This document shows, in pieces, positions 1,206 through 26,214 of a stretch of DNA of 32,794 nt; position 1 is the stretch's first letter, and each line of letters opens with the position of its first letter. The stretch is from positions 1 through 32,794 of the forward strand of contig JACAFC010000197.1 in the NCBI GenBank assembly GCA_013388515.1, given 5' to 3'. The position numbers and the translations under genes are program-made. The notes under the pieces were generated by a model that worked only from the letters and a program-made list of their open reading frames with translations, had not been told where the DNA came from and did no database searches. Source of the stretch: Ignavibacteriaceae bacterium (GTDB lineage Bacteria > Bacteroidota > Ignavibacteria > Ignavibacteriales > Ignavibacteriaceae).

Positions 1206-2042
1206 ATGGATTTGGATAAATTACTTAATCTTCTTGAACTGCCGGCATCTGAGCTTACCGAACACAAGCACACATTTGTTCCATATTTATATATTGATGG
1301 TCACCGCAGCAGTGGAATTAATGATGATGATGTTGAAAGCTACAAAAGCGGCATAAATTTTTTCCTCCGCTTTTCTGAAATCTTAAAACAGCTTGGTTTC
1401 GAGCAAATGGTAACCATGGTTCACACAAACAGAAATAAAGCTGTTGCTGGAAGAGTTCATGCTATACAAAAAGCTATTCAAGAGGATCTTGATCTTTCTA
1501 ATAGTATTGCTGCACACTCAAGGTTTAGGATTTACGGTAATCTTGATGAATACCTTAACAACGGCAGCCGAAAATTTTATGATTACCTTAACAATGTTAT
1601 TGAAAAAACTTCACGCAATACAGACTTCACACATCACATTCTCATTAATTACTCTGAAGACTGGGCAATTTCAAACCTTGGAACAATTAATAACTTACCC
1701 AAAATTAGTTCTGTTATCCGATTTACTAAAGGATTTGTAAGCGGCGGCTGGATTCCATTAAAGATGCAAGAAACTACTTTTGTTTACAGTCAGCTTCCAT
1801 CTGTTTCGGAGTTTTGGTCTGACGAAGCAATTCTTTTTTTAATATTGGTAAGCTTTAAAAACTGGGCAGCGTTGTCAAATTATATAGGTAAAAAAGTTTA
1901 TACCGCCGCTGAAAGAAACGAGATTCATGAAAAACGAGATTTGGAACTAAGATCAGACACTTCAGAAGTTAACATTAATTCTAAGATGCACAACAGAATA
2001 ATCATTTTCGGTTTGCACGGCCCTATTATTTATGAGCTATGA
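1206..2042 (+). CDS. Divergent cis-prenyltransferase (UppS-like) homologue
   Basis: The 278-residue protein follows the undecaprenyl diphosphate synthase fold order: YIDGHRSSG at 29-37 in place of MDGNGRW, HTNRNK at 73-78 in place of FSTENW, FRIYGNLDEY at 107-116 (family R-IGD/L), INYSEDW at 147-153 (family LNYGGR), VIRFTKG at 170-176 (family IRTSGE) and FVYSQLPSVSEFW at 192-204 (family AYAELYFTDVLW). The pyrophosphate-binding Asp31 and Arg171 appear kept. The GH-x-x-G His, the second Arg of the IRTSGE-x-R motif and the Glu equivalent to E. coli E213 (here Gln196) look lost. It may be inactive, a partner subunit, or a changed prenyl-chain or cyclase enzyme. Its last 11 bases overlap the next gene, so the two are probably translationally coupled. 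No clear ribosome site precedes the ATG. Homology fairly sure; function open. Confidence 0.7.
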   Translation: MDLDKLLNLLELPASELTEHKHTFVPYLYIDGHRSSGINDDDVESYKSGINFFLRFSEILKQLGFEQMVTMVHTNRNKAVAGRVHAIQKAIQEDLDLSNSIAAHSRFRIYGNLDEYLNNGSRKFYDYLNNVIEKTSRNTDFTHHILINYSEDWAISNLGTINNLPKISSVIRFTKGFVSGGWIPLKMQETTFVYSQLPSVSEFWSDEAILFLILVSFKNWAALSNYIGKKVYTAAERNEIHEKRDLELRSDTSEVNINSKMHNRIIIFGLHGPIIYEL

Positions 2043-2958
2043 TTATTTTAAGTCAATCGATTTGCAATCTGCATTCAGCTTAGCTGAGCAAACTGCAAGG
2101 TTAAAATCTCCCAAAGCAAAATTTATTTTAGACCATACCGTTGAAAAACATAAAAGAGGTTATCTCAATTTATCGTTTGCTTATCTAAGATGGGTAGATG
2201 ATTTTGTTGATAACCCCAATATTGCTGTTTCTGATAAAGAAAAATTAGTTAACCGCCAGAAGTTTTTAATTCAACAGTACGCTAAAAAGCATTTTGAGGA
2301 GTATAAGCTGCCTGAGGAGGCATTCTTATATCACTTTATCGAATATGCAAATAAAGTAAACGCTCAAATATTAATTAACGCTGCTAAAAAAATGGTTGAA
2401 GCAATAGGAATGGATGTTGACCGCTTGAAAGGAGATGGAATATTTTCCGAAGCTGAACTTAATTTCTATATCAACACTCTGTCTAAAGCACTTTATGATA
2501 TTATTATTTACTTTTTCCTTCCCGGGCAATACCAGTCTGTTCAAAATGTTCTTACAGGCAGATTTCAAGCCCGCGCTTTTATGATGAGAGATATAATTGA
2601 AGACATTGATGCTGGATTTATAAACATTCCCCGTGAGGATATCAATAAATTTAAATTGGATATTAACTCAATAAAAGAGAAACGAAACTTGGAACATTGG
2701 CTGGAAAAAGAGATTGATCACATTCTAAAACTATTAATTGACGAAGCTGAAGAAGCCAATCTGCTTCCCACTAAGTTCAAAATTTTTATGTACTACTCTC
2801 ACCTTTATTATTTACCAAAAATATTTAGACTTAAAGAGTATTCATTTAATCCTCTATTAGCCGCTCAACAAAAAAAAATTACCAATGAACTAAAAGCATA
2901 CCTTCACTCTGCTGCATTTGGAGTAAAGCTTTTCAAAATAGAATTTCTAAAACCTTAA
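2032..2958 (+). CDS. Squalene/phytoene synthase family protein (first copy)
   Basis: A 308-residue all-alpha trans-prenyl synthase of the SQS/PSY family, which joins two prenyl diphosphates head to head. Both aspartate-rich magnesium-binding motifs are present: YLRWVDDFVD (DDFVD at 56-60) and MMRDIIEDIDAGFINIP (DIIED at 187-191), the latter matching the family pattern RD-x-x-ED-x-x-G-x-x-x-x-P. Length fits bacterial members (about 280-310). The start codon overlaps the end of the cis-prenyltransferase-like gene, and a second family member follows 51 bp downstream, so the three probably act together. HpnC/HpnD squalene synthesis also uses two such proteins, but no HpnE-type flavoprotein is seen here. 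Exact substrate (FPP, GGPP, or a cis-prenyl diphosphate) cannot be read from sequence. Confidence 0.8.
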   Translation: MSYDYFKSIDLQSAFSLAEQTARLKSPKAKFILDHTVEKHKRGYLNLSFAYLRWVDDFVDNPNIAVSDKEKLVNRQKFLIQQYAKKHFEEYKLPEEAFLYHFIEYANKVNAQILINAAKKMVEAIGMDVDRLKGDGIFSEAELNFYINTLSKALYDIIIYFFLPGQYQSVQNVLTGRFQARAFMMRDIIEDIDAGFINIPREDINKFKLDINSIKEKRNLEHWLEKEIDHILKLLIDEAEEANLLPTKFKIFMYYSHLYYLPKIFRLKEYSFNPLLAAQQKKITNELKAYLHSAAFGVKLFKIEFLKP

Positions 2959-3009
2959 CCAGTATGATAGTACAATTGCAGAACTATGATAAGATCATGT
3001 TAAGTTTTT

Positions 3010-3921
3010 ATGAATAACAAAACCCAAGCAATTCCGTTAAGTGAAGCAGCTAAAGCCGCAAATATCAGCACACGTAAGCGAGCTTTCAAGTTTTGGCTGA
3101 TAAGTCATCTTTTAATGACAAAAGAAGCCCGTATTTATATTTATATGCTCCACATGTATTTGCGCTGGGCAGATGATTTTATTGACACCACATCAAATTC
3201 TGCTGAAGATAAAATAAAGTTTGTAAGATATCTTTTCACTTTGAAGGAAAAAATTCTAAATCATCATTATGATTTTAATAAGCTTGAAGAGCATTACCTT
3301 TACTATTCAATCAAGTTTGCAGAGGGAAAAAATAGACCTCTAATCTTAAACTGCATTGACCAATATCACGAATTATTCGAAATGGAAGCCAATAGGTTAA
3401 GCCGAGGTGGAATTTATTCTAAAGAGGAATTCGAACGCTACGTATTTGTTAATATTACTTCGTTAATGCCTGTATTTCATCTTTTCTTATACTATAATTC
3501 TGCAACCAATATTGATTATGGAGTAATTGGTCGGTTCTTCCTTTATGTACGGCTGCTTAAAGATTTTGAAGAGGATGTAAATGTTGGCTATTTAAATATT
3601 TGCAAAGAGGACATCGAAAAGTATAACCTAAATACAACTAACATACTAAATGACCCAAAACGTTTTTTATGGGCAGAATCTTTTTCAACTGAAATATTTA
3701 AAGCACTGTTCGATGAGCTTGAGGTTATGGCAAAAGCTCCTCTGAAAGTAAAATTATTTTGGACGCTTGGTTATATCTATTTAGCAAAAGAAATTTTACA
3801 AATTAAATGTTATAAGTTTCAATTCGGCTGTAAAATAAAGAAGAATATTGTAACGGAAATTATAATTCTTTCTTCAACAATTCGGCTTGGAAGCAAGATT
3901 ATACAAAAAATATTTTTCTAA
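3010..3921 (+). CDS. Squalene/phytoene synthase family protein (second copy)
   Basis: A 303-residue paralogue-like partner of the preceding gene. It has the first Asp-rich motif in YLRWADDFID (DDFID at 55-59) and the second in RLLKDFEEDVNVGYLNI (DFEED at 185-189). The usual Arg before the second motif is Lys184 and the family Pro after it is replaced (NICKED), so it is more divergent than its neighbour. Two unequal family members side by side suggest either sequential reactions, as in HpnD then HpnC, or a heterodimer. The gene ends 11 bp before the end of the convergent MFS gene; no hairpin terminator is visible between them. Family call good, reaction unknown. Confidence 0.78.
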   Translation: MNNKTQAIPLSEAAKAANISTRKRAFKFWLISHLLMTKEARIYIYMLHMYLRWADDFIDTTSNSAEDKIKFVRYLFTLKEKILNHHYDFNKLEEHYLYYSIKFAEGKNRPLILNCIDQYHELFEMEANRLSRGGIYSKEEFERYVFVNITSLMPVFHLFLYYNSATNIDYGVIGRFFLYVRLLKDFEEDVNVGYLNICKEDIEKYNLNTTNILNDPKRFLWAESFSTEIFKALFDELEVMAKAPLKVKLFWTLGYIYLAKEILQIKCYKFQFGCKIKKNIVTEIIILSSTIRLGSKIIQKIFF

Positions 3922-5168: not shown

Positions 5169-5274
5169 GTTTGTACGTTAATTTTTATTGGATATGAGAA
5201 ACTTAAATAATTTTAGGTGAAACTAAAGGATATTGAAGAAAATTGCAAAAAGCAGGTTGAATATTGATTAGATA

Positions 5275-5308
5275 GTGCACCCTGGGGGACTCGAACCCCC
5301 GACCAATA
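5275..5308. repeat. Left island boundary: 34-bp copy of the tRNA-Lys 3' part (att-like)
   Basis: This stretch is identical over 34 bp to 17177-17210, covering the tRNA 3' acceptor strand, T arm and variable region. Identity stops abruptly on both sides (A versus T to the left, AAG versus GAT to the right). There is no anticodon arm, D arm or 5' acceptor strand here, so it is not a tRNA gene. Orientation matches the intact tRNA, as expected for the far end of an element integrated into the tRNA 3' end. Confidence 0.85.
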
Positions 5309-5340
5309 AAGTTATAATAATCTTTAAATATTAACGCTAA

Positions 5341-5578
5341 GGTGGTGTCTATTATTTTTCATTCTTCATAAGTGAGATTGTACAGTTTGTAAACCATCCC
5401 TCACACACTCCTTGCCTTATCCAATCGGTTTTTTACTAACTCGGCAACGGACCAGTAAACTTCTCCGCCAGTGGCGGACAGGTTTCTGTTCAGCTTCGGT
5501 TAAGTCGAGTGCATCAAAGATGATGTCGTCTAATGCTTTTCTATCCGGCAGTGGATATAGCTCTTTTAAGTTTATTTA
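5341..5578 (-). pseudogene. Decayed DNA methyltransferase C-terminal tail, copy A
   Basis: On the minus strand, 5578-5483 reads KELYPLPDRKALDDIIFDAL then DLTEAEQK. After a 19-bp palindrome (5464-5482), 5463-5401 reads EVYWSVAELVKNRLDKARSV and stops. Removing the 19 bp joins the two pieces in frame, giving a C-terminus of the kind I recall from Eco57I-like or type IIG methyltransferases (DDIIFDAL ... ELVKNRL-KA-SV). After the stop, 5397 onward reads MVYKLYNLTYEE, a stop, then KIIDT, which resembles another methyltransferase tail. No catalytic domain remains. Methyltransferase origin is recalled family knowledge; the frames and stops are direct. Confidence 0.6.
5464..5482. repeat. 19-bp palindromic element interrupting the methyltransferase relic
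   Basis: TCCGCCAGTGGCGGACAGG contains the near-perfect palindrome TCCGCC-AGT-GGCGGA. Its length is not a multiple of three, and it separates two fragments that are otherwise contiguous in one reading frame, so it behaves as a small insertion that broke the gene. Confidence 0.6.
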
Positions 5579-5635
5579 TTTTTTCTGAATTTAAACTTTA
5601 AAGTTGAGTTTCTCTGAATAATTCCTCACGAAAAA

Positions 5636-6073
5636 TTATGGTGTTTTATAAAAGGGTAATGTTAGAGGTGGAACATTCATTCTTGAAGTAGTTTGATTAA
5701 CGAATTCTCTTAAATATGGCCAAGTATTCAAGTGAAGACTAATGTTTTTATAAACATCAAAAAAATCTTCTGTTAAAGTTTCTTTTGAATAGAGTTTTAC
5801 TAAAAAGGTAACTTCTAACTGAAAAAACCTGGTTTTAGATTGCGGTTTCCGAGCATCTATCTGATACTTTTGAAAAACAAATACGACCCCTTCTTCTTTA
5901 ACCTTATAATCAGCTTCATCCTTTATTTGTATGTTTAGTTCTGTTGGTGGAGTTATCTCGACGTTTAAAAAAGTTCTTGATTCTTTTAATGAAATACTAA
6001 TAAGATCTAAACCTTGTAAAATTTTTTTATAATCTTCTGGAGATATTTTTGGTTTTTTAACTTCTTTATTCAT
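5636..6073 (-). CDS. SecB-like chaperone of a toxin-antitoxin-chaperone (TAC) module
   Basis: The 145-residue protein has a beta-rich body and ends with WPYLREFVNQTTSR then MNVPPLTLPF (118-141). This matches the SecB C-terminal helix and following loop (E. coli [23 protein letters not shown]). Length is near that of SecB (about 150). SecB-like proteins placed third after a toxin and antitoxin are known from TAC systems (M. tuberculosis HigBA-Rv1957, with HicAB and MqsRA variants), where the chaperone folds and protects the antitoxin. The start is 2 bp after the antitoxin stop, so it is co-translated with it. An ordinary export SecB is unlikely given the genomic-island, toxin-linked setting. 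Confidence is good for the SecB fold and moderate for the TAC role. Confidence 0.75.
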   Translation of the reverse strand: MNKEVKKPKISPEDYKKILQGLDLISISLKESRTFLNVEITPPTELNIQIKDEADYKVKEEGVVFVFQKYQIDARKPQSKTRFFQLEVTFLVKLYSKETLTEDFFDVYKNISLHLNTWPYLREFVNQTTSRMNVPPLTLPFYKTP

Positions 6074-6075
6074 AA

Positions 6076-6633
6076 TTAACCAGCTTTTGAATAGTTAGCG
6101 TACACATTATCTTTTTTCTCCCCAACAATAAAATGAAGATTTGGGGAGCTAAAATCCTTATAGATATTTTTTTGTTGAATCTCATATTCAACTTTTTTCA
6201 TCTCTGTGAGCACTTGCTCAAATTTGCTACAATAAGTTTCAGTAATTTCTTCAAATGATGAAAAAGATATACCTTTAGTAATTATATATTGCACAAATTG
6301 ATTTAAACTTATCCCATTTTTATTAGCATTCCGCACCAGTTCTTTATGTAATTCCTTTGGTACCCTAACCAGAAATTTACCGCTAAATTCGTCTTCTTTT
6401 TGTTCTTGCGGTTCTGGGATAGGAATTCCTTTTTGTAACATCCTTGCAAAATTTTCTTCCTTTATAATCTCTAGGTTTTGAATTGCTTCTTCTATAGTTT
6501 CTCCATCAGAAATGAAAGCATTTCTGCCTAAAAATGGTATACAGGCAGAATAGCCACCGCCTTCATCATCAGGAATTTTATTAATTTCTATTGGATAATT
6601 AAGGGCGAGATAATATTTAAGATCCTTTTGCAC
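6076..6633 (-). CDS. hicB: HicB-like antitoxin with C-terminal extension (putative chaperone-addiction segment)
   Basis: Residues 1-75 form the HicB partial RNase-H-like domain: GGGYSACIPFLGRNAFISDG at 25-44, then ETIEEAIQNL and GIPIPEP at 69-75. Residues 85-121 are a ribbon-helix-helix DNA-binding domain (FLVRVPKELHKELVRNANK then GISLNQFVQYI). The protein continues to residue 185, about 60 residues past that domain; ordinary HicB proteins end near it. In TAC systems an extra C-terminal segment (ChAD) makes the antitoxin depend on its SecB-like chaperone, which is encoded next here, so the tail is a candidate ChAD. The start is GTG with AAGGAG seven bases upstream, inside the end of hicA. It should bind HicA and repress the shared promoter. 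Confidence 0.8.
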   Translation of the reverse strand: MQKDLKYYLALNYPIEINKIPDDEGGGYSACIPFLGRNAFISDGETIEEAIQNLEIIKEENFARMLQKGIPIPEPQEQKEDEFSGKFLVRVPKELHKELVRNANKNGISLNQFVQYIITKGISFSSFEEITETYCSKFEQVLTEMKKVEYEIQQKNIYKDFSSPNLHFIVGEKKDNVYANYSKAG

Positions 6634-6636
6634 AAC

Positions 6637-6924
6637 TTACTCCTTGATTAACCTTATTGCTTCACAAAGCATTCGCATATAAAAAAATTTAATTCTTTTA
6701 CCACCTGTTGTCGGAATAGTAAGCATTCCTTCTGTTCCATATTTTTCAGGATATTCCTTAAACTTTTCGTGCCAAATTCTGTAATTATGAGAACCTCTCG
6801 TATCACCAAATGACCAGGAATCAGGAAAAAAATGATTTAAAATTGACTCTAAATCATCTCTAGGAATTTCTTGTTTGTAATTTGGATTACAAAATTTCTC
6901 AAGTCTCTTTTCAATTCTAGACAT
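6637..6924 (-). CDS. hicA: HicA-like mRNA interferase toxin
   Basis: This 95-residue protein has the HicA pattern: a glycine then the catalytic-type His in TRGSHNYRIWH (42-52), then MLTIPTTGGKRIKFFYMRML (66-85) in place of the family VTIP-H-GKEIKKGTLRSIL. HicA toxins adopt a double-stranded-RNA-binding fold and cleave mRNA and tmRNA. It is longer than the classic 58-80 residues, with an N-terminal extension (1-25). It is first in a three-gene operon with HicB (3-bp gap) and the SecB-like chaperone. A palindrome-containing promoter lies just upstream. The His needed for activity is present, so it is probably a working toxin. Confidence 0.75.
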   Translation of the reverse strand: MSRIEKRLEKFCNPNYKQEIPRDDLESILNHFFPDSWSFGDTRGSHNYRIWHEKFKEYPEKYGTEGMLTIPTTGGKRIKFFYMRMLCEAIRLIKE

Positions 6925-6940: not shown

Positions 6941-6973
6941 ACAAAGTTACTATATATAGTATCACTTTGTCAA
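6941..6973 (-). promoter_or_regulatory. Promoter and palindromic operator of the hicA-hicB-secB operon
   Basis: Plus-strand 6941-6970 carries arms ACAAAGT and ACTTTGT around the perfect palindrome ACTATATATAGT (6949-6960). On the minus strand TTGACA lies at 6973-6968 and TAACTTTG at 6949-6942, 17-31 bases before the hicA ATG; the second fits the Bacteroidota -7 consensus TAnnTTTG with a 21-bp spacing after TTG. The operator overlaps both boxes, suitable for repression by the HicB ribbon-helix-helix domain. The sequence features are seen; the autoregulation is inferred. Confidence 0.6.
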
Positions 6974-7086
6974 GACATTTCCAACTGATTATCGAATTAT
7001 ATTGAAAATTGTTTATTTATAGATTTAGTCATATCAGTAAATTTTTTCTGAGTCAAAATAAGTATTTCAAGTATAATTAACTCATC

Positions 7087-7158
7087 TCACACACTCCTTG
7101 CTTTATCCAAGCGGTTTTTTACTAACTCGGCAACGGACCAGTCGTCTTCTTTATTGTC
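7087..7158 (-). pseudogene. Decayed methyltransferase C-terminal tail, copy B
   Basis: Minus-strand 7158-7087 reads DNKEDDWSVAELVKNRLDKA then RSV and a stop, nearly identical in DNA and peptide to the terminal part of copy A (5463-5401). It is cut off upstream by the 52-bp GGCGTCTCTGCG repeat. No start codon or further domain is present. It lies on the other side of the TAC module from copy A. Confidence 0.6.
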
Positions 7159-7208
7159 CTGGCGTCTCTGCGTAAAATTATTTTTCTTGCAAAGCCGCAA
7201 AGACGCTA
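7157..7208. repeat. 52-bp imperfect palindromic repeat (GGCGTCTCTGCG family), copy 1
   Basis: It matches 13407-13458 at 47 of 52 positions, with no gaps. GCGTCTCTGCG near one end pairs with CGCAAAGACGC near the other with one mismatch, so it can form a hairpin. Repeats of this wording (lower-copy REP-like elements) are scattered in many bacterial genomes. Here it interrupts the run of methyltransferase relics. Confidence 0.65.
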
Positions 7209-7217
7209 TATTTTTTT

Positions 7218-7372
7218 TCAAATTTCAAATCTTTCATACTCTTCTCTGCTTATTATTCGCTCAATTTCCGGGTCTATTATTTTCACTTCCTCGTATGTGA
7301 GGTTGTAGAGTTTGTAAACCATTCCTCAATCACTCCTCACTTTATCCAAGTGTTTTTTACTAACTCGTAAAT
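7218..7372 (-). pseudogene. Decayed methyltransferase tail, copy C (with a 34-codon open frame)
   Basis: From 7372 the minus strand shows the ELVKN segment, one base short, then a damaged LDK-R-S segment ending in TGA. Then ATG at 7322 opens a 34-residue frame, MVYKLYNLTYEEVKIIDPEI then ERIISREEYERFEI, to a stop at 7218. Copy A has the same junction (stop, one glycine codon, ATG GTT TAC AAA), so A and C are duplicates of one ancestral segment. The 34-residue peptide resembles the last residues of Eco57I-like methyltransferases and is unlikely to be a gene on its own. Confidence 0.55.
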
Positions 7373-7431
7373 AACCAGCGGCATAATTCCTTAAAAGTCT
7401 TTTGGCTTTAGCCTGATTATAATGTGTCCAT

Positions 7432-9645
7432 TTAATTACTCATCATCATATTATAATGCTCAATATGTCCAGTGATTTCAAAAATTTTCTTGAATACAAT
7501 TTTAAATTTGTCCATTTGTTCATTAGTAATAGATACATTATAATCATCTATAATCTCGTGTGAACCAGCATTAACCCAAGCGAACAAACTTTTACATATT
7601 AATTGCTCTTCTTTTTCAAATTTTTCAATCAATTCGTGTTCGTTTATATTGGCAAGAAACTTAAAGTAAAACTCTATAATCCTACGCATTGAATTTTGAA
7701 GTGAAATACAATCACTTGCATTACGCTTAACATCATCCCATAAAAGTTGGTAACTGGTTTTTATAGGACAAGTTTCATATTTATCAATGAAACTAATATT
7801 AAAATTTTTCCTAACAATAAAATAGATAGTATCACTCCGATTATTGTAACAAGATTCCCTGCTTGAAATAAAAGTTATTTCTTTAAAGAAATATGCATTA
7901 TGTGTAAAAATGAAAACTTGTTTAATTGTGCCTTCGTTATTTCTAACATTATCTAAAGTCTTTCTTATTAACATTGAGACAATGAATAAAACATCTGAAT
8001 CAAAACTTGATACTGGGTCATCTATAACAAGCACCTTATCCTGATTTATATTTTCTTCTGGATTTTCAACACCGTATACAAAATGATAGAAATACAAGAA
8101 CACTAAAAAGTTTCTTTCACCTTCGCTTAATGTTTTTTTGGCATCTGAGCCATCATTCCGAATTACTTGATAATGTTTTTCATCTTCCGAAGCTTTTAGC
8201 TTAAAACCCGTAAAACCAAAATTTTCCAATATCTTATTTATTGCATCAACGGTTGGTTTTACGCTTTTTATTTGCTTCTCTAATTCCCCGATTTCTTTCG
8301 TTGTATCTGTAATATTTTGTTCTTTTTGCTGTATTTGCTGAGATATATTTTTAATTGCTTTTTCTATATTATTATTCTCTTTTACATAATTAACTACATC
8401 ATTTTTTAATAATTCAAAAATAAATCTCCATATTTCATTATTTAAAATTTGCTTTTCACTTTCTTTATTATCAATCAACCTGTTATGCTCTTTTATATTT
8501 TCATCAATTTCAGTTAGAATTACATTTATTTCTTCGACCACGTTTGAGTATGGTTTAATTTCTATTTTCTCACTTGGGTTATTTTGTTTTTTCACAAGTA
8601 ACTGTTTATTCTGATTGATTATTCCATCGATTATATTGTGTTTATCCCTAATAATAGATTTCTTTTCATCAATGTATTTATTTGATAGCAAAAGTAATTC
8701 TGAAAAATATTCTTCTACCTTTTTTGCTAAATCAGAATAATTTTTAACATAGTTATTTAACTCGCTAAGTTTTTTTTGATAAGTCTCGTCAAAATACTCT
8801 TCCAATTTTTTTCGGAAATCTTCGGATGTTTTTTGCTGACAGAAAGGACAAATATAATTGCCATCTTCATCAATATTTTGATCATAATATTCTTTACCTT
8901 GTTTTACCCAATCGTGATTATGCAATTTTTCAATCATCCTGGCTATATCAATATCTTTCTTACCAACGATTGATAATTTCAGAATGCCTTGATTATCTTC
9001 AATTGATTTAATCTCTTCTAATGTATTATCATCTAAAAAAATTAGTTCATTTATTTTTGAAACATCACTGCCATAGAGTAAATCATATTTCTCTTTAAGT
9101 TTTATTCTATATAATAATGCTGAAGAATTCGAATTTTGAGCTAATATCTCATTAGCAAATTTTTCTTTGCTTCCTTTATATCCAGTAAAAAACAAATCAA
9201 AATCATTTTGCAAATCCAAATAACCTTTTTGCCAGCAAGTTTCTTTAAATTCTTTAAATAAGTCAGTTTGTTCTAGTTCTTTTTCCGCCTTTGTTCCGTT
9301 TAAACTTGTTAATTCTTTCTTTAGTCTATCTAAATCACTCTTTTTGTTTATTATCTCTTCTTCAATCTCTTTTGCTCCCTTACCAATTGTGTAAATTCCA
9401 CTAAGTGAATCTTTAGCATAAAAATAGTCTCTTACAAAATCTTCATTGTAAATGATAGTTTTTAATTTGTCATTCCCATACCATTCAACATTACAATAAT
9501 TATATGCATCTGGATTTGCTAAAACTCTAGTTATAGTGGTTTTACCTGAACCATTAGCCCCATAGAAAAAATTGATTTTTCTTAGTTCTTCTAAATTTAC
9601 TGCGTTTTCAAATGGTGTAGTATGAAGTTTTATACTATTTATCAA
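7432..9645 (-). CDS. AAA_13 ATPase with PrrC/RloC-like anticodon-nuclease C-terminus
   Basis: The 737-residue protein has an ABC/SMC-type split ATPase: Walker A GANGSGKTT at 29-37, signature LSEGE at 506-510, Walker B VLVIDDPVSSFDS at 538-550, and switch His in FTHN near 580-583. Between them is a long coiled coil with one CPFC at 266-269, like the zinc hook of RloC. The C-terminus has Arg654-x-x-x-Glu658 and His696 (MRRIIEFYF ... NAGSHEI), matching in order and similar spacing the Arg-Glu-His triad of the PrrC anticodon nuclease (R320, E324, H356). It probably senses DNA damage or phage attack and cleaves a tRNA. The start is TTG, 14 bp after the methyltransferase stop, with GAGG five bases upstream. 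Third gene of the defence operon. The ATPase call is firm; nuclease activity is inferred. Confidence 0.82.
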   Translation of the reverse strand: MINSIKLHTTPFENAVNLEELRKINFFYGANGSGKTTITRVLANPDAYNYCNVEWYGNDKLKTIIYNEDFVRDYFYAKDSLSGIYTIGKGAKEIEEEIINKKSDLDRLKKELTSLNGTKAEKELEQTDLFKEFKETCWQKGYLDLQNDFDLFFTGYKGSKEKFANEILAQNSNSSALLYRIKLKEKYDLLYGSDVSKINELIFLDDNTLEEIKSIEDNQGILKLSIVGKKDIDIARMIEKLHNHDWVKQGKEYYDQNIDEDGNYICPFCQQKTSEDFRKKLEEYFDETYQKKLSELNNYVKNYSDLAKKVEEYFSELLLLSNKYIDEKKSIIRDKHNIIDGIINQNKQLLVKKQNNPSEKIEIKPYSNVVEEINVILTEIDENIKEHNRLIDNKESEKQILNNEIWRFIFELLKNDVVNYVKENNNIEKAIKNISQQIQQKEQNITDTTKEIGELEKQIKSVKPTVDAINKILENFGFTGFKLKASEDEKHYQVIRNDGSDAKKTLSEGERNFLVFLYFYHFVYGVENPEENINQDKVLVIDDPVSSFDSDVLFIVSMLIRKTLDNVRNNEGTIKQVFIFTHNAYFFKEITFISSRESCYNNRSDTIYFIVRKNFNISFIDKYETCPIKTSYQLLWDDVKRNASDCISLQNSMRRIIEFYFKFLANINEHELIEKFEKEEQLICKSLFAWVNAGSHEIIDDYNVSITNEQMDKFKIVFKKIFEITGHIEHYNMMMSN

Positions 9646-9659
9646 ATTAACCTCATTGT

Positions 9660-12600
9660 TTATTTTTTCCCCATATACATTTCTTCCACCATCTCGTCCA
9701 ACTCTTTTTGTATTTCTGATAAATTATTTTCGGCTTCTATTTCTTTAATTTTCCCTTCAAACTTTTGCTTTTGGTTATTATAAGCTCTCTCAAATATATT
9801 TTCAAATTGTTTTAGCTGGTCAGGTGTTGGTATAATAATCGGCAAGAGTCTAGCATCGTTTATTTGAAACGTTTGTGTGTTTTTAATAAAAGAAAATACA
9901 TATTCACTTACAAATGTAGAATTTAAAAGACAAACAAAATAATATTCTGGATATTCATTGTAATCCAAAGAAAATAAACTCATACTTTTTACATCGTGTA
10001 TCCCATTTATCTTAATTCTACATTTTATATTTAACGTATGAATATCACTCCAGCAAAAACCTTCACGGAAATAGAACTGAGGATTTCGGACAACAGGCAT
10101 CCCTTCGCCCTTTTTACCAGAGTTTTCTTTTAAAAATTTCACATTCTCTCTACTCCAGTCTATATAGTACGGTGTAGGGGCATACCAGCGGTTACCGTCT
10201 TTATCGCCTTTATCATACGGAACAAAAGTTTTTGTTCCTTTTATTCCATTTAGTTTCTCATCTTCTGTTAGTTTATCTAAATCTGCAATTTCTTCTTTAC
10301 TTACAATACGATAAAGCCAGCCTTGTCCAAAAACATCTCTTCCATACTTTTCTTTTAAGTCATCAAAGAGTTTTCTAATTTCTTTTTCTGAAAGATTTTC
10401 TAAAAATGTTTGAGCGTCTTGCTTTGTTTTTATGTGTTGTTTTTTACAAAACTCCGTAGCCAAAAGTAATTTCTCGGGTCTTTGCTTCTTTACATTATCT
10501 GCCCATTTGGTTTCTTCTAATACTCCAACATATTTACCATTATTAGCTGTAGCTAAACCTTGTCCACCTTCTGTAATCAAACCCAGCAAAGTTATATCAC
10601 CAGGTCTTAGGTTTTTACGATATTCATCTAACTTTCTTTTGTTTTTTTCAATGTTTTTGCTGGTGGAGATTAAATCCCACCATTTATGTAGTAATTCATT
10701 TACTGTTTTACCTAACTTTTCATAAATTTTTATATTCACCGTAGTTGGAATAAAAAATACTTTATTTGGGGCAGCAGAAAAAACAATTTGCTTTGATTTG
10801 TATCTATCAGGATTAGATAAATTTGTTTTGCCATCTAAAAAAATAGTGTTATGAGATTCATCAACTATTTGCTTTTGAACAATAGCAACACAAGTATCAA
10901 CCATAGCCGATTCGAAAGGATTTGCGGTATCAAACAGTTGGAGGATTTTATTTCTTAAAAGGAGTTCTCTTAAATTCTTTTTGGTTTGTATAGTCCAGAA
11001 AGTTTTTGAAGAAATATAAGCAAGAATACCATTTTCTTTGAGTAGATTTATTCCTTTGAAGTAAAAGTGGTTGTAGGTATCATCAGCAAAGCCATATTGT
11101 TGCTCAAGTTGTTTTTTATCTTGTGAATCTACTCCTTTTGTTGAAATATACGGCGGATTACCAATCACAATATCAAATCCTGAAGATTCGGATACTTTTA
11201 TTCCAAACATCCATTCTGGGTCAAACCAATCGGAGTGTGTGTTTTGGTCGAAAGGATCCCAGCTTGTAATTTTTTCTGCAATGTCGTTTTGAAAACCATT
11301 TTGTTTTAATGCAACTTTAAGTTGTTCTCTTAATTTTTTCTCTTTCTTTTGAAGTTCAACTTTTTCTTTTCTGCTGTTGGTGTAAAATATTTCTTCTCTA
11401 ACTTCAAATAATTTCTTTTCAAGTGATTCAATTTCGCTTGAAGTTAAACTCATTTGCGTTGGTCTGCTCAATCCAATTAAAGTATTTGCCGCAACAAATT
11501 TTGTTTCAAGGTTTGGTAAGGCACGAATATCACGATTTGGTTTTGTGTCATCAATTTCTTGCTCTACCAGTAACGAAATAAAAAATCTAAGTTTACTTAT
11601 CTGTATTGCAATTTCCTGAATATCAACGCCATAAATACAATTTTCAATCAAGCCAAGTTTTCTTATATAATCAACTGACTTATTCAATAAAGATTTTTCT
11701 GTTTCATCTTTTATTTCTGGAGGAACTCTTTCAAGCAATTTCTTTTTCCAGATTTTATTATCGGGGTCAAGTTTATGGAGAGCAAGCACAAGTTTATGCA
11801 AAATTCCCATTGGAAAAGCACCGCTACCACAAGCTGGATCAAGAATTTTTATATTCTCAATTGCTTCAATTAATTTTATAGTAGTTTGTTCATCAAAAGG
11901 ATTTTCATCGGAAGCATAATCGAAAAGTAAACGAAGGTTATCTTCAGATATTTTATCATTATTATTAAGAGAAGTTTTTAAATGTTCAATCAAAGAGTCA
12001 TTTACCATATACTCAACAATTTCCCTTGGCGTATAATAACTTCCGGTTGCTTTTCTTGCTGTTTCAGAAGTTTCTGGCACATAAGCAGCCAATAAGTTTT
12101 CAAATACTTTACCTAATAGTTCTGGGTCTAATGCAACATCCTGGTCAACAGGTGTGTTTTCATCAATTGTAAAGTTGTATCGTTTAAGTATGGTTAAAAG
12201 CCCGGTAACTTTTTTATTCTTACCTTTGTCAAGATATTTTGATAAGTCGACATCATTTTCTTTATCGAGGAAAAATATTTCATCTGGAACTTTTAATTTG
12301 GTTTCATTCTTAGGATTATCAGAAAAACAGTCAATTCTTATTACTTCAGTACCTATTTTTTTATCTAGGCATTCAAACAAACCACCATTTAAGAATGGCA
12401 CATTTTCAAATTGTTCTATAAATAAATTTTTGTCTTTTATAAATCTGCTATAACGATAATATCCTTGTTGAAGGTACGCATCGCTTAAGTATCCTTTTTT
12501 CTCAGCTTCTTCAACAAATATTCTGCTTTCCTTATCATCTTTTTTCATTTTTGTATTAAGCGTAGCAAAGAATAAATTTTGAAGTATTGCTTTATAGTAT

Positions 12601-13337
12601 GTGCTGCCAGTATTGTCTTTGTAATATATGATTTTGTCAATAAAGGATTTTTCAAATAGTGTAGAAGGAACAAGTTCTTTTTCCTTCATAAACCAGATGA
12701 AAATTATTCGTGTAATTAAACGAATAAGACTTTTAGCATTTCTCTTTTCTCTCTCTTTTTCTTCATCATCAGGAAATTCTACTTTATCCATTGCCCAGAA
12801 ATACCAGTTAGCAATTTCCTGATAGAATTGTTTGGTTACTTTTTCTACACTGAATGCATCAATGATTTTATCGAGCGAGGTAAAATCAGCCTCGGTAAAT
12901 TGTTTTATGAATGTTTTGTTAGTTTGGTCTTTGTTTACAAAGTAAGTAAATCTTCTAAAGTTGCTCCAGTCTCTTTTGCCGGTTGAAAGGGGAATATCAT
13001 AAATCAATGAAAAGCGAAAATCACCTTTGTCATCATAGAAAATGAAAAAGCCGGCAATATATTTTTGAGCATCTTTAAGAAATTTTTTGCCAAGTGTGTA
13101 TTGTGCTTTTTTGCCAGAGCGTTCAGAGAGTGGTTTGTTTACTTTAGCAGTTACAACTACAATTAGATCATCATTATTAACCTTAAATTCACCAAATAAA
13201 GATGATTCAGAAAACTGAACATCATTTAATTGGGTTAGTTTTTCTTCAACCAGTCGGAAAGTTCTGGTTTTAGCTCTCAGAAGAGAGTGCAGATTATAAT
13301 CGTTGAATTGGTGAATAAGGTTTTCAATTTCTTTCAT
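9660..13337 (-). CDS. Eco57I-like N6-adenine DNA methyltransferase (type IIG/BREX-PglX-like architecture)
   Basis: Counting from ATG at 13337 the protein has 1225 residues. Motifs run in gamma-class order: GSYYTPREIVEYMV (about 432-445), SAM-binding ILDPACGSGAF (498-508), IYGVDIQEIAIQISKLR (568-584), and catalytic NPPY (727-730). A C-terminal target-recognition region includes VVRNPQFYF. The N-terminal region (to about 190) has the pattern of large Eco57I-like enzymes (ERSGKKAQYTLGK, FRFSLIYDI) but no nuclease motif I can defend. It should methylate adenine in a specific site and so mark self DNA. A longer reading from TTG at 13382 would add 15 residues, but these lie in repeat-derived sequence, so the ATG is preferred. 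Stop is 14 bp before the ATPase start. Nuclease and motor functions are probably supplied by the helicase gene upstream. Confidence 0.88.
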   Translation of the reverse strand: MKEIENLIHQFNDYNLHSLLRAKTRTFRLVEEKLTQLNDVQFSESSLFGEFKVNNDDLIVVVTAKVNKPLSERSGKKAQYTLGKKFLKDAQKYIAGFFIFYDDKGDFRFSLIYDIPLSTGKRDWSNFRRFTYFVNKDQTNKTFIKQFTEADFTSLDKIIDAFSVEKVTKQFYQEIANWYFWAMDKVEFPDDEEKEREKRNAKSLIRLITRIIFIWFMKEKELVPSTLFEKSFIDKIIYYKDNTGSTYYKAILQNLFFATLNTKMKKDDKESRIFVEEAEKKGYLSDAYLQQGYYRYSRFIKDKNLFIEQFENVPFLNGGLFECLDKKIGTEVIRIDCFSDNPKNETKLKVPDEIFFLDKENDVDLSKYLDKGKNKKVTGLLTILKRYNFTIDENTPVDQDVALDPELLGKVFENLLAAYVPETSETARKATGSYYTPREIVEYMVNDSLIEHLKTSLNNNDKISEDNLRLLFDYASDENPFDEQTTIKLIEAIENIKILDPACGSGAFPMGILHKLVLALHKLDPDNKIWKKKLLERVPPEIKDETEKSLLNKSVDYIRKLGLIENCIYGVDIQEIAIQISKLRFFISLLVEQEIDDTKPNRDIRALPNLETKFVAANTLIGLSRPTQMSLTSSEIESLEKKLFEVREEIFYTNSRKEKVELQKKEKKLREQLKVALKQNGFQNDIAEKITSWDPFDQNTHSDWFDPEWMFGIKVSESSGFDIVIGNPPYISTKGVDSQDKKQLEQQYGFADDTYNHFYFKGINLLKENGILAYISSKTFWTIQTKKNLRELLLRNKILQLFDTANPFESAMVDTCVAIVQKQIVDESHNTIFLDGKTNLSNPDRYKSKQIVFSAAPNKVFFIPTTVNIKIYEKLGKTVNELLHKWWDLISTSKNIEKNKRKLDEYRKNLRPGDITLLGLITEGGQGLATANNGKYVGVLEETKWADNVKKQRPEKLLLATEFCKKQHIKTKQDAQTFLENLSEKEIRKLFDDLKEKYGRDVFGQGWLYRIVSKEEIADLDKLTEDEKLNGIKGTKTFVPYDKGDKDGNRWYAPTPYYIDWSRENVKFLKENSGKKGEGMPVVRNPQFYFREGFCWSDIHTLNIKCRIKINGIHDVKSMSLFSLDYNEYPEYYFVCLLNSTFVSEYVFSFIKNTQTFQINDARLLPIIIPTPDQLKQFENIFERAYNNQKQKFEGKIKEIEAENNLSEIQKELDEMVEEMYMGKK

Positions 13338-24867: not shown

Positions 24868-26214
24868 TTAGGACATCAAGTAGCTTATTGCAGAATTTAA
24901 GTTGTCTATGGGAATGATTTTTATTGCAGAATCTTTTAGAGATGCATTATTATATGATGGTATCAAGATGGTACTGAAACCTAACTTTTCCGCCTCTTGA
25001 ATTCTTTTCTCAATCTGGCTCACACTTCTAACTTCCCCGCCTAAACCAACCTCCCCAACTACTATTGTATCTCCATCAATCTCTTTATCAAGTAAACTGG
25101 ATGCGATACTGCAGCAAACAGCCAAATCGATTGCAGGTTCAGTTATTTTTATTCCACCAGCCATGTTAAGAAAAACATTATTTGCAGATAACCGAAGACC
25201 AGCACGTTTTTCTATAACTGCTAAAAGTATAGCAAGTCTTCTATAATCAAATCCGGTTGCAACTCGCTGAGGATTTCCAAAGTTCGATGGAGTAACTAAA
25301 GCTTGAACTTCAAGAAGGATTGGTCTTGTACCTTCCATGCTTGAGGTTACAATTGATCCTGAAGTTTTACGTTCTCTTTCACTGAGGAATAATTTGCTCG
25401 GATTTCGGACTTCTTGCAATCCATTTTCATGCATTTCAAAAACGCCAATTTCATTTGTGCTGCCAAATCTATTTTTTTGCGCTCGCAAAATTCTAAATGA
25501 ATGATGATGTTCTCCCTCAAACTGAATAACAGTATCCACAATGTGCTCTAAAATTTTTGGTCCGGCTATAAATCCTTCTTTTGTAACATGACCGATCACA
25601 ATTACGCAAAAATGCTTTTTCTTAGCTTCTTCCATCAGAGTAACAGTACATTCCCTAATCTGTGTCATCGTACCCGGAGAATTATCAAGCTCGCTCATTG
25701 CAATAGTTTGAATTGAATCAATAACTACAAGCGATGGCGATATCTTATTTATGGAATCTAAAATTGCGGTTAGATCAGTTTCAGGAAGAACAAAAAATTC
25801 ATCAGACGTAATTCTTAATCGTTCTGCACGCAGTTTAATTTGCTTTGCCGATTCCTCACCAGAAACGTACAAAACAGGAGTTTTAAGATTGGCACATGCT
25901 TGCATAGCAAGTGTTGATTTACCAATACCTGGATCTCCACCCAATAGAATAACTGACCCTGGCATCAACCCGCCGCCAAGCACTCTGTCAAATTCTTCAA
26001 TTTGCGTTTGTATTCTTTCTTCTTCGGCTGCAAAAATTTCATTGATTCTGCTCAATGGAACTATATTCTTGCCAGCTGTTTGTTTTTTCTTTCCTGTCTC
26101 AACAAGCTCTTCTACAAAAGCATTCCAACTTTCGCATTCGGGACATTTACCTATCCATCTTAAAGATTCATAACCACAATTTGAACAGATGTATTTTATT
26201 CTTGATTTGGGCAT
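24868..26214 (-). CDS. radA: DNA repair protein RadA
   Basis: A full-length (448-residue) RadA/Sms. The N-terminal zinc finger is CSNC ... CPEC (Cys10, 13, 24, 27). The RecA-like core has Walker A GGDPGIGKST (92-101), Walker B LVVIDSIQT (162-170) and the RadA-specific KNRFG motif (247-251). The C-terminal Lon-protease-like domain includes NVFLNMAGGIKITEPAIDLA and VGEVGLGGEVR. RadA is a branch-migration helicase that processes recombination intermediates. It appears to be a single gene. Confidence 0.97.
   Translation of the reverse strand: MPKSRIKYICSNCGYESLRWIGKCPECESWNAFVEELVETGKKKQTAGKNIVPLSRINEIFAAEEERIQTQIEEFDRVLGGGLMPGSVILLGGDPGIGKSTLAMQACANLKTPVLYVSGEESAKQIKLRAERLRITSDEFFVLPETDLTAILDSINKISPSLVVIDSIQTIAMSELDNSPGTMTQIRECTVTLMEEAKKKHFCVIVIGHVTKEGFIAGPKILEHIVDTVIQFEGEHHHSFRILRAQKNRFGSTNEIGVFEMHENGLQEVRNPSKLFLSERERKTSGSIVTSSMEGTRPILLEVQALVTPSNFGNPQRVATGFDYRRLAILLAVIEKRAGLRLSANNVFLNMAGGIKITEPAIDLAVCCSIASSLLDKEIDGDTIVVGEVGLGGEVRSVSQIEKRIQEAEKLGFSTILIPSYNNASLKDSAIKIIPIDNLNSAISYLMS

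Follow-up and report, generated by a model that had tools for sequence, protein, structure and literature searches.

In toxin-antitoxin-chaperone (TAC) systems, control of a toxin by its own specialized chaperone is clearly seen, and in two of them, CmdTAC and HigBAC, the trigger can be a structural protein of a phage. For the kind built on HicAB, the literature found holds one tested example and no phage test: the HicAB-SecB trio of Methylomonas methanica MC09 (Mmet-TAC; Bordes et al. 2016), which was cloned and in which inhibition of the toxin in E. coli needs the chaperone (PMC5105189). Here, we describe a locus of an Ignavibacteriaceae bacterium (GCA_013388515.1, contig JACAFC010000197.1) that is very probably a HicAB-type TAC operon. 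The whole 32,794-nt stretch analyzed is called the window, and the hicA-hicB-secB module lies on its minus strand at 6924-5636. Like this module, Mmet-TAC combines a HicAB pair with a SecB-like chaperone, and its HicB has a C-terminal extension, of which residues 119-159 were used as the chaperone-addiction region (ChAD); compared by description, its HicB differs in ending in QYA, as read from the printed reverse primer, and not in the pattern [YF]xx[AST][AGVMI] treated below (PMC5105189). A first-pass annotation of the window had called HicAB TACs known but little studied; known they are, and the obscurity was overstated, given that Mmet-TAC is a validated system (PMC5105189). We recognized no further papers on HicAB-SecB among those that searches of open-licence literature listed.

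Other TACs share parts of this design. In Mtb-TAC (HigB1-HigA1-Rv1957), the chaperone has the solved structure nearest to the SecB fold of the window, and the ChAD of the antitoxin HigA1 is bound by SecB, with a Val-Ala ClpX degron at its end (PMC8165232); unlike the window locus, it is built on a HigBA pair, and the identity of the SecB proteins in the structural alignment is about 18%. CmdTAC is the system formerly named PD-T4-9 (PMC9519451), and its CmdC model in PADLOC, PD-T4-9_C, matches the SecB-like protein of the window (E 2.3e-7). Its antitoxin CmdA ends in LAA and is lost to ClpP once a capsid protein takes CmdC (PMC11618068). No PADLOC model matched the window toxin or antitoxin at E<=0.1, in a library whose CmdT/CmdA content was unchecked; CmdTAC has an ADP-ribosyltransferase toxin, CmdT, with CmdA as antitoxin, whereas the window proteins are HicA and HicB by profile. 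MqsRAC and HigBAC, both of E. coli C496_10, likewise join a toxin-antitoxin pair to a SecB-like chaperone, the former acting against phage T2 (PMC9519451) and the latter responding to the major tail protein of phage lambda (PMC11980606, a citing paper); likened here by description, they differ in having MqsRA and HigBA pairs in place of HicAB. Among two-gene systems, class 4 hicAB resembles the window locus in having hicA before hicB and a C-terminal ribbon-helix-helix (RHH) domain in HicB (PMC10865869); to these the window locus adds a tail of 67 residues and a third gene. The main text of that 2024 survey by Gerdes does not use SecB, chaperone or TAC as whole words (PMC10865869). HicAB-SecB TACs, TAC degrons and phage defense by other TACs are already known, and the window locus is a new example of a known trio.

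The first-pass annotation placed a HicA-HicB-SecB module at 5636-6924, and all three minus-strand open reading frames (ORFs) were found there. The hicA-like toxin gene (6637-6924, 95 aa, ATG start) is followed by the hicB-like antitoxin gene (6076-6633, 185 aa, GTG start), which encodes an N-terminal HicB domain, an RHH domain and a long tail, and then by the secB-like chaperone gene (5636-6073, 145 aa, ATG start). Gaps of 3 bp between hicA and hicB and 2 bp between hicB and secB, all on one strand, predict a single operon, and hence a type II toxin-antitoxin pair and a SecB-like gene in one operon, the arrangement by which a TAC is recognized. The SecB-type C-terminus that had been read in the third gene is present as the signature WPYLREFVNQTTSRMNVPPLTLP.

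The fold of the third protein links it to known TAC chaperones. By profile, the SecB-like family matches Rv1957, the TAC chaperone of M. tuberculosis, at E 6.1e-6. The AF2 model of the window protein (pLDDT 90.9) is assigned a SecB fold by both Foldseek and VIA. Foldseek ranks 5mtw, the complex of the Rv1957 SecB with its ChAD, first with all four of its chains and ahead of export SecBs, at E values from 3.3e-8 to 1.7e-7 (3.9e-8 with TM 0.76 for chain C). In VIA, the model aligned to Rv1957 with Z 15.2 and a root-mean-square deviation (rmsd) of 1.9 A over 131 residues, against Z 14.1-14.3 for crystal structures of export SecBs; a gap of about 1 makes this a near tie. Whether the 145-residue protein folds like SecB had been set beforehand as a refuting test of the annotation, and its predicted structure is nearest to the TAC chaperone. 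Alignment of the family to E. coli SecB by hhalign covered 28 columns, too few to place the SecA-binding positions. As a single-sequence query, the window SecB found no relative in the genomes or viral contigs, and alignment queries did find relatives.

These relatives show that the trio is maintained. The SecB-like protein occurs in 6 of 97 related genomes, its own included, and the order hicA-hicB-secB is found in all six, with the other five SecBs being 29-62% identical to that of the window; persistence of the gene order despite this divergence indicates that the arrangement is not due to chance. A six-row SecB alignment searched against named genomes gave 38 loci. A HicB-type antitoxin adjoins the SecB gene in 30 of them, with a HicA-like gene recognized in 26 of those 30, and the remaining eight are HigA- or MqsA-like TACs, as judged by eye (L044-L050 for the antitoxins), or a fragment. 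Hosts of the related loci include Melioribacter and other Ignavibacteria, Zixibacteria, Aminicenantes, Bacteroidetes and Deltaproteobacteria. Methylomonas methanica belongs to another phylum than the host of the window. When the search started from HicB, 13 matches with E<1e-40 were obtained in 294 genomes of the class, and SecB lay next door in 11 of the 13.

The antitoxin is a HicB of the RHH type, with a match to PF05534 (E 1.4e-15) at residues 74-118 (6280-6414, minus strand); its match to PF15919 (E 0.0011) is below the cut-off. By hhalign, the HicB profile (A6) matched the HicB annotated on a plasmid at 99.9% (E 2e-35). About 60 residues had been noted past the RHH domain, and the count is borne out: 67 aa (residues 119-185; 6079-6279, minus strand) follow the end of the PF05534 match and form the candidate ChAD. 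HicB homologues have no conserved columns past the RHH region except near the C-terminal end, and ChADs are described as varying in both length and sequence (PMC5105189). Tail length was counted from the first [ST][LI][NS] ("SLN") after residue 55, which is a rough marker. The controls were 22 RHH-type HicBs of the window's class whose fetched flanks gave no SecB match, most of them from another HicB subfamily; one cut by a contig end (L097), two with broken frames (L078 and L103) and HicBs lacking an RHH domain were left out. From SLN to the end, 34 HicBs with SecB have 52-107 residues, compared with 12-50 in 19 of the controls and 71-79 in the other three, so TAC antitoxins carry a C-terminal extension relative to their two-gene homologues; because the shortest TAC tails have 52 and 53 residues, length alone fails to separate every case. 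A related pair makes the same point. L062, in whose fetched flank no SecB was matched, and the TAC locus L020 have identical residues at 93 of 162 aligned positions in HicB and 64 of 103 in HicA; the HicB of L062 continues for 49 residues past SLN, that of L020 for 81, of L037 for 94, of L040 for 88 and of L041 for 95. L062 was also considered as a full natural control and rejected, as three of its four nearest TAC relatives lack the tail-end motif as it does; it bears on tail length only.

The end of the tail is the second feature that follows SecB. The window HicB terminates in NVYANYSKAG, and its last five residues, YSKAG (6079-6093, minus strand), are a candidate ClpX degron by their likeness to the end of the host SsrA tag, since the transfer-messenger RNA (tmRNA) of the same genome encodes GEYNYALAA; ClpX is present as well. 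C-termini were counted in 34 TAC HicBs, or 33 clusters at 90% identity, with same-contig duplicates counted once. Three rows were dropped: L026, a 104-aa HicB with the end LLAA for which no toxin was found; L033, a fragment close to the end of its contig, with the end RKAA; and L036, a 142-aa HicB that lies 86 bp ahead of SecB, ends in IQA and is probably frameshifted. The pattern [YF]xx[AST][AGVMI] is found in 22 of the 33 TAC HicBs and in none of the 22 controls, as is the simpler A[AGV] end (22/33 vs 0/22), and the looser [ASTVI][AGVMI] is found in 29 of 33 against 2 of 22. Clustering at 50% identity leaves 13 of 22 TAC HicBs and 0 of 12 controls with A[AGV], and clustering at 70% leaves 20 of 31 and 0 of 17 (Fisher p 6.5e-6, a guide only, given the kinship of the sequences and the different subfamily of most controls). 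An origin of this recurrent end in a ribosome-binding site was considered and rejected: the Ala codon at position -2 varies across loci (GCT, GCA, GCG, GCC), and at least six loci (L017, L024, L025, L027, L029 and L042) have a separate GGAG-like stretch past the HicB stop, so that selection is probably on the protein. As degron ends of HigA1 and CmdA are already in print, the new part is the distribution of such ends over HicB-type TACs and their likeness to the host's own tag.

The toxin is HicA when judged by profile. Among 26 HicA-like toxins aligned with the window protein included (A4), seven match PF07927 at E<=0.1, the best at 1.9e-4, and hhalign pairs the alignment with the HicA annotated on the Thermus plasmid pVV8 at a probability of 97.9% (E 4.3e-13), the two GSH motifs being aligned. 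The family profile also retrieves toxins adjoining HicBs without SecB; of six such toxins, five match PF07927 at E<=6.9e-5, three of them above the curated cut-off, and that of L064 does so at 0.063. The histidine of the GSH motif has a functional role in HicA toxins. It is kept in the window protein as His46, and [GST]SH is present in 19 of the 26 aligned toxins, the window included. The AF2 model of the toxin has a pLDDT of 91.8. VIA gave at best Z 3.7 with an rmsd of 3.7 over 71 residues to an unrelated chain, with no HicA among the rows, and the A4 profile searched against the PDB gave weak matches to proteins without known relation (best E 0.0086). As an observation on the family, the GSH histidine is replaced (GSQ, GSA, GSM) or shifted (SDHTT, GHSAY) in the related TAC toxins of L030, L031, L035, L039, L020, L037 and L040; these toxins perhaps have other active sites or are inactive.

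A shared palindrome stands before hicA. The 20-mer TGATACTATATATAGTATCA lies upstream of hicA with 3 mismatches or fewer in 20 of 33 TAC loci and with 4 or fewer in 23, counts that are not independent, the 20-mer having been derived from the same loci with near-identical ones left unmerged; shuffled sequences and a whole-genome search served as controls. It sits 12-22 bp before the hicA start in 21 of those 23 loci, and shuffled upstream sequences seldom come within 4 mismatches of it. In the window, the palindrome is at 6945-6964, 20 bp upstream of hicA, with 2 mismatches against a chance expectation of 0.00, and in the whole genome of the host its 16-base core, allowing one mismatch, occurs only at this site, on both strands of the palindrome. 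Scored singly, the palindromes are not significant in most loci, and the shared 20-mer is. The palindrome is probably the operator of the HicB RHH domain; for hicAB systems in general, HicB is described as repressing its own operon by way of palindromes (PMC10865869). The upstream regions of nine HicABs without SecB contain the 20-mer within 3 mismatches in two cases, L062 (1 mismatch) and L064, and at 9-10 mismatches in the other seven, which ties the operator to a HicAB subfamily rather than to SecB. A sigma-70 promoter scan gave 5 matches against a shuffle mean of 7.5, fewer than the shuffles, and no terminator was found. Overlapping the operator, TTG at 6971-6973 with TAACTTTG at 6942-6949 makes up a candidate minus-strand promoter (6942-6973), read from the sequence, which we presume to fit the Bacteroidota-type consensus.

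The TAC reading of the locus is supported by the SecB fold nearest to Rv1957, the homology of HicA and HicB, the conservation of the trio, a tail whose length and end track SecB, and the operator. Several points weigh against it. The Pfam SecB match of the 145-aa protein is weak (E 0.011) and under the cut-off; the window HicA, as a single sequence, matches no Pfam or NCBIfam model, and its structural model has no convincing PDB match in Foldseek (best E 0.58), a result that we count on this side and take as neutral. The [GST]SH histidine is missing in 7 of 26 toxins, the operator match exceeds 4 mismatches in 10 of 33 loci, and the tail-end motif is absent from 11 of 33 non-redundant TAC HicBs, including three of the four in the subfamily of L062 (L020, L037 and L041), and from L062 itself. 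Enrichment of aromatic residues in the HicB tails is slight (10.9% vs 9.4% in the core). Moreover, no export SecB was found in the genome, and the SecB-like protein could have an export role. An ordinary two-gene HicAB standing before the gene of an unrelated SecB-like export chaperone, with some other role for the HicB tail, would agree with the sub-cut-off Pfam SecB match, with the lack of another SecB in the genome and with the occurrence in the same class of HicAB modules without SecB nearby, one of them the close relative L062. The genome search (0/1 genomes with a SecB-family match, assembly 94.9% complete) says little here, as it missed the window's own SecB and a divergent SecB could have escaped it too. 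We consider such a chance neighborhood very improbable, given that the trio is maintained in loci of many phyla with differing flanks, that tail length and tail end follow the presence of SecB, and that the fold is nearest to Rv1957, if by a small margin over export SecBs. It is also improbable that the locus is a decayed or non-toxic TAC, with a drifted toxin and a module kept as a regulator or in the course of being lost. The lack of a family match for the window HicA and flanks that appear to carry remnants of methylase-type C-termini would agree with decay; however, none of the three frames is interrupted, the GSH motif, tail end and operator are kept, and the toxin is 47-57% identical to four relatives (L013-L016) while its frame stays intact.

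For the tail end itself, the alternative is that the recurrent C-terminus belongs to the SecB-binding site and is not a degron, a refinement rather than a full rival of the TAC reading. SecB-binding stretches already described are rich in aromatic and basic residues (PMC5105189), with which a [YF] at position -5 in 23 of 34 TAC HicBs and a Lys, Arg or Glu at position -3 in 22 of 34 agree in part. The latter position also speaks against SsrA mimicry: the window end fits the pattern of the host tag, yet has Lys at -3 where the tag has Leu. On the other hand, the most constant part of the end is the terminal pair of small residues counted above as [ASTVI][AGVMI], which resembles the ClpX signals of HigA1 (VA) and CmdA (LAA), and we regard a binding site in place of a degron as rather unlikely. 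The two roles may overlap.

If the locus is a TAC, it may work as follows. HicA would be an mRNA-targeting ribonuclease covered by the N-terminal domain of HicB, and the RHH domain would repress the operon at the palindrome before hicA; ribonuclease activity and autorepression are what the HicA and HicB families lead us to expect. The long HicB tail would be a poor folder ending in an SsrA-like ClpX signal (NYSKAG), and a tetramer of the SecB-like protein would bind this tail, allowing HicB to fold and hiding the signal from ClpXP. Loss of the chaperone to a competing partner, such as the phage structural protein in CmdTAC, would lead to degradation of HicB, release of HicA and arrest of translation. 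We infer the chaperone dependence and the ClpXP degradation of HicB by analogy with Mtb-TAC, Mmet-TAC and CmdTAC, and a phage trigger or defense role is suggested by genomic context and by other TACs (CmdTAC, MqsRAC and HigBAC) only. A more tentative proposal, which we hold to be possible but somewhat doubtful, is that HicAB-SecB TACs are widespread mobile phage sensors: phage structural proteins would occupy the chaperone covering an SsrA-mimicking HicB tail, ClpXP would then remove HicB, and HicA would be freed at the same moment as repression at the shared operator is lifted, which would account for the presence of the trio in some defense operons, plasmids and phages. The locus and its relatives offer matched sequences, an operator in common, the chaperone-less L062 and a tail end open to comparison with the host SsrA tag, so that chaperone addiction and degradation of HicB are directly testable.

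The surroundings of the trio fit a role in defense or phage competition. The first-pass annotation had set the module in a defense island, and the three genes upstream of it on the same strand are indeed of defense type: a PDC-S06-type AAA_13 protein, a type IIG/PglX-like methylase and a PLD-Snf2 helicase. At E 1e-5, a scan of ten other ORFs in the window gave one weak defense match, that of a 448-aa ORF (24868-26214, minus strand) to BrxL (E 3.1e-7) and mad8 (E 2.3e-6). For the relatives, 10 neighboring proteins picked by eye were scanned, a sample from which no defense-island fraction can be derived. Matches were obtained to HerA (L013), a type IIG methylase and a DruE-like helicase (L022), DUF1156 methylases (L023 and L032), a type ISP enzyme (L041) and a HEC-01A-type ATPase (L029); the scanned neighbors of L024, L035 and L039 had no match. 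The neighbors of L014, L015 and L016, judged by eye alone, look housekeeping-like. On the plasmid pVV8 of Thermus thermophilus HB8, the trio lies at 11414-13180 (L125/L126) between Fic/DUF1156 and Swt1-HEPN genes.

On both sides of the window module, at 5240-5640 and 7020-7435, there are decayed stretches (DRKALDDIIFDALDLTEAEQ..., SVAELVKNRLDKARSV, MVYKLYNLTYEEVKIID). To our eye, DRKALDDIIFDALDLTEAEQ, SVAELVKNRLDKARSV and MVYKLYNLTYEEVKIID presumably resemble a methylase C-terminus; the flanks contain an 87-nt direct repeat in three copies of 62-100% identity and are unlike the end of the neighboring methylase. Within the repeat region, 5283-5375 (minus strand) gave a sub-threshold match to the tmRNA model (E 1.6e-5, 19 bits vs 47), which is probably noise.

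Related sets were also seen on mobile elements. The pVV8 locus encodes HicA, HicB, a helix-turn-helix protein ending in SWASWAA and an N-terminally extended SecB-like protein, which is annotated only as a helix-turn-helix protein; the set is perhaps a two-antitoxin TAC. The viral contig L111 (IMGVR_UViG_3300027690_000117) carries a trio at 1995-3364, between ORFs that by eye resemble a terminase large subunit and a portal protein, and its HicB ends in VEEAA. In L017, hicA follows a terminase-like ORF that has no Pfam match at 1e-5. Three-gene TAC-like sets, hypothetical or unannotated, occur near the cI/cro region in Escherichia phage PhiR70_1 (L128, 1191-2713) and Klebsiella phage 2b (L127, 1260-2779), and consist of a possible toxin, an antitoxin that is MqsA-like by eye and ends in RVA or QVA, and a SecB-like protein.

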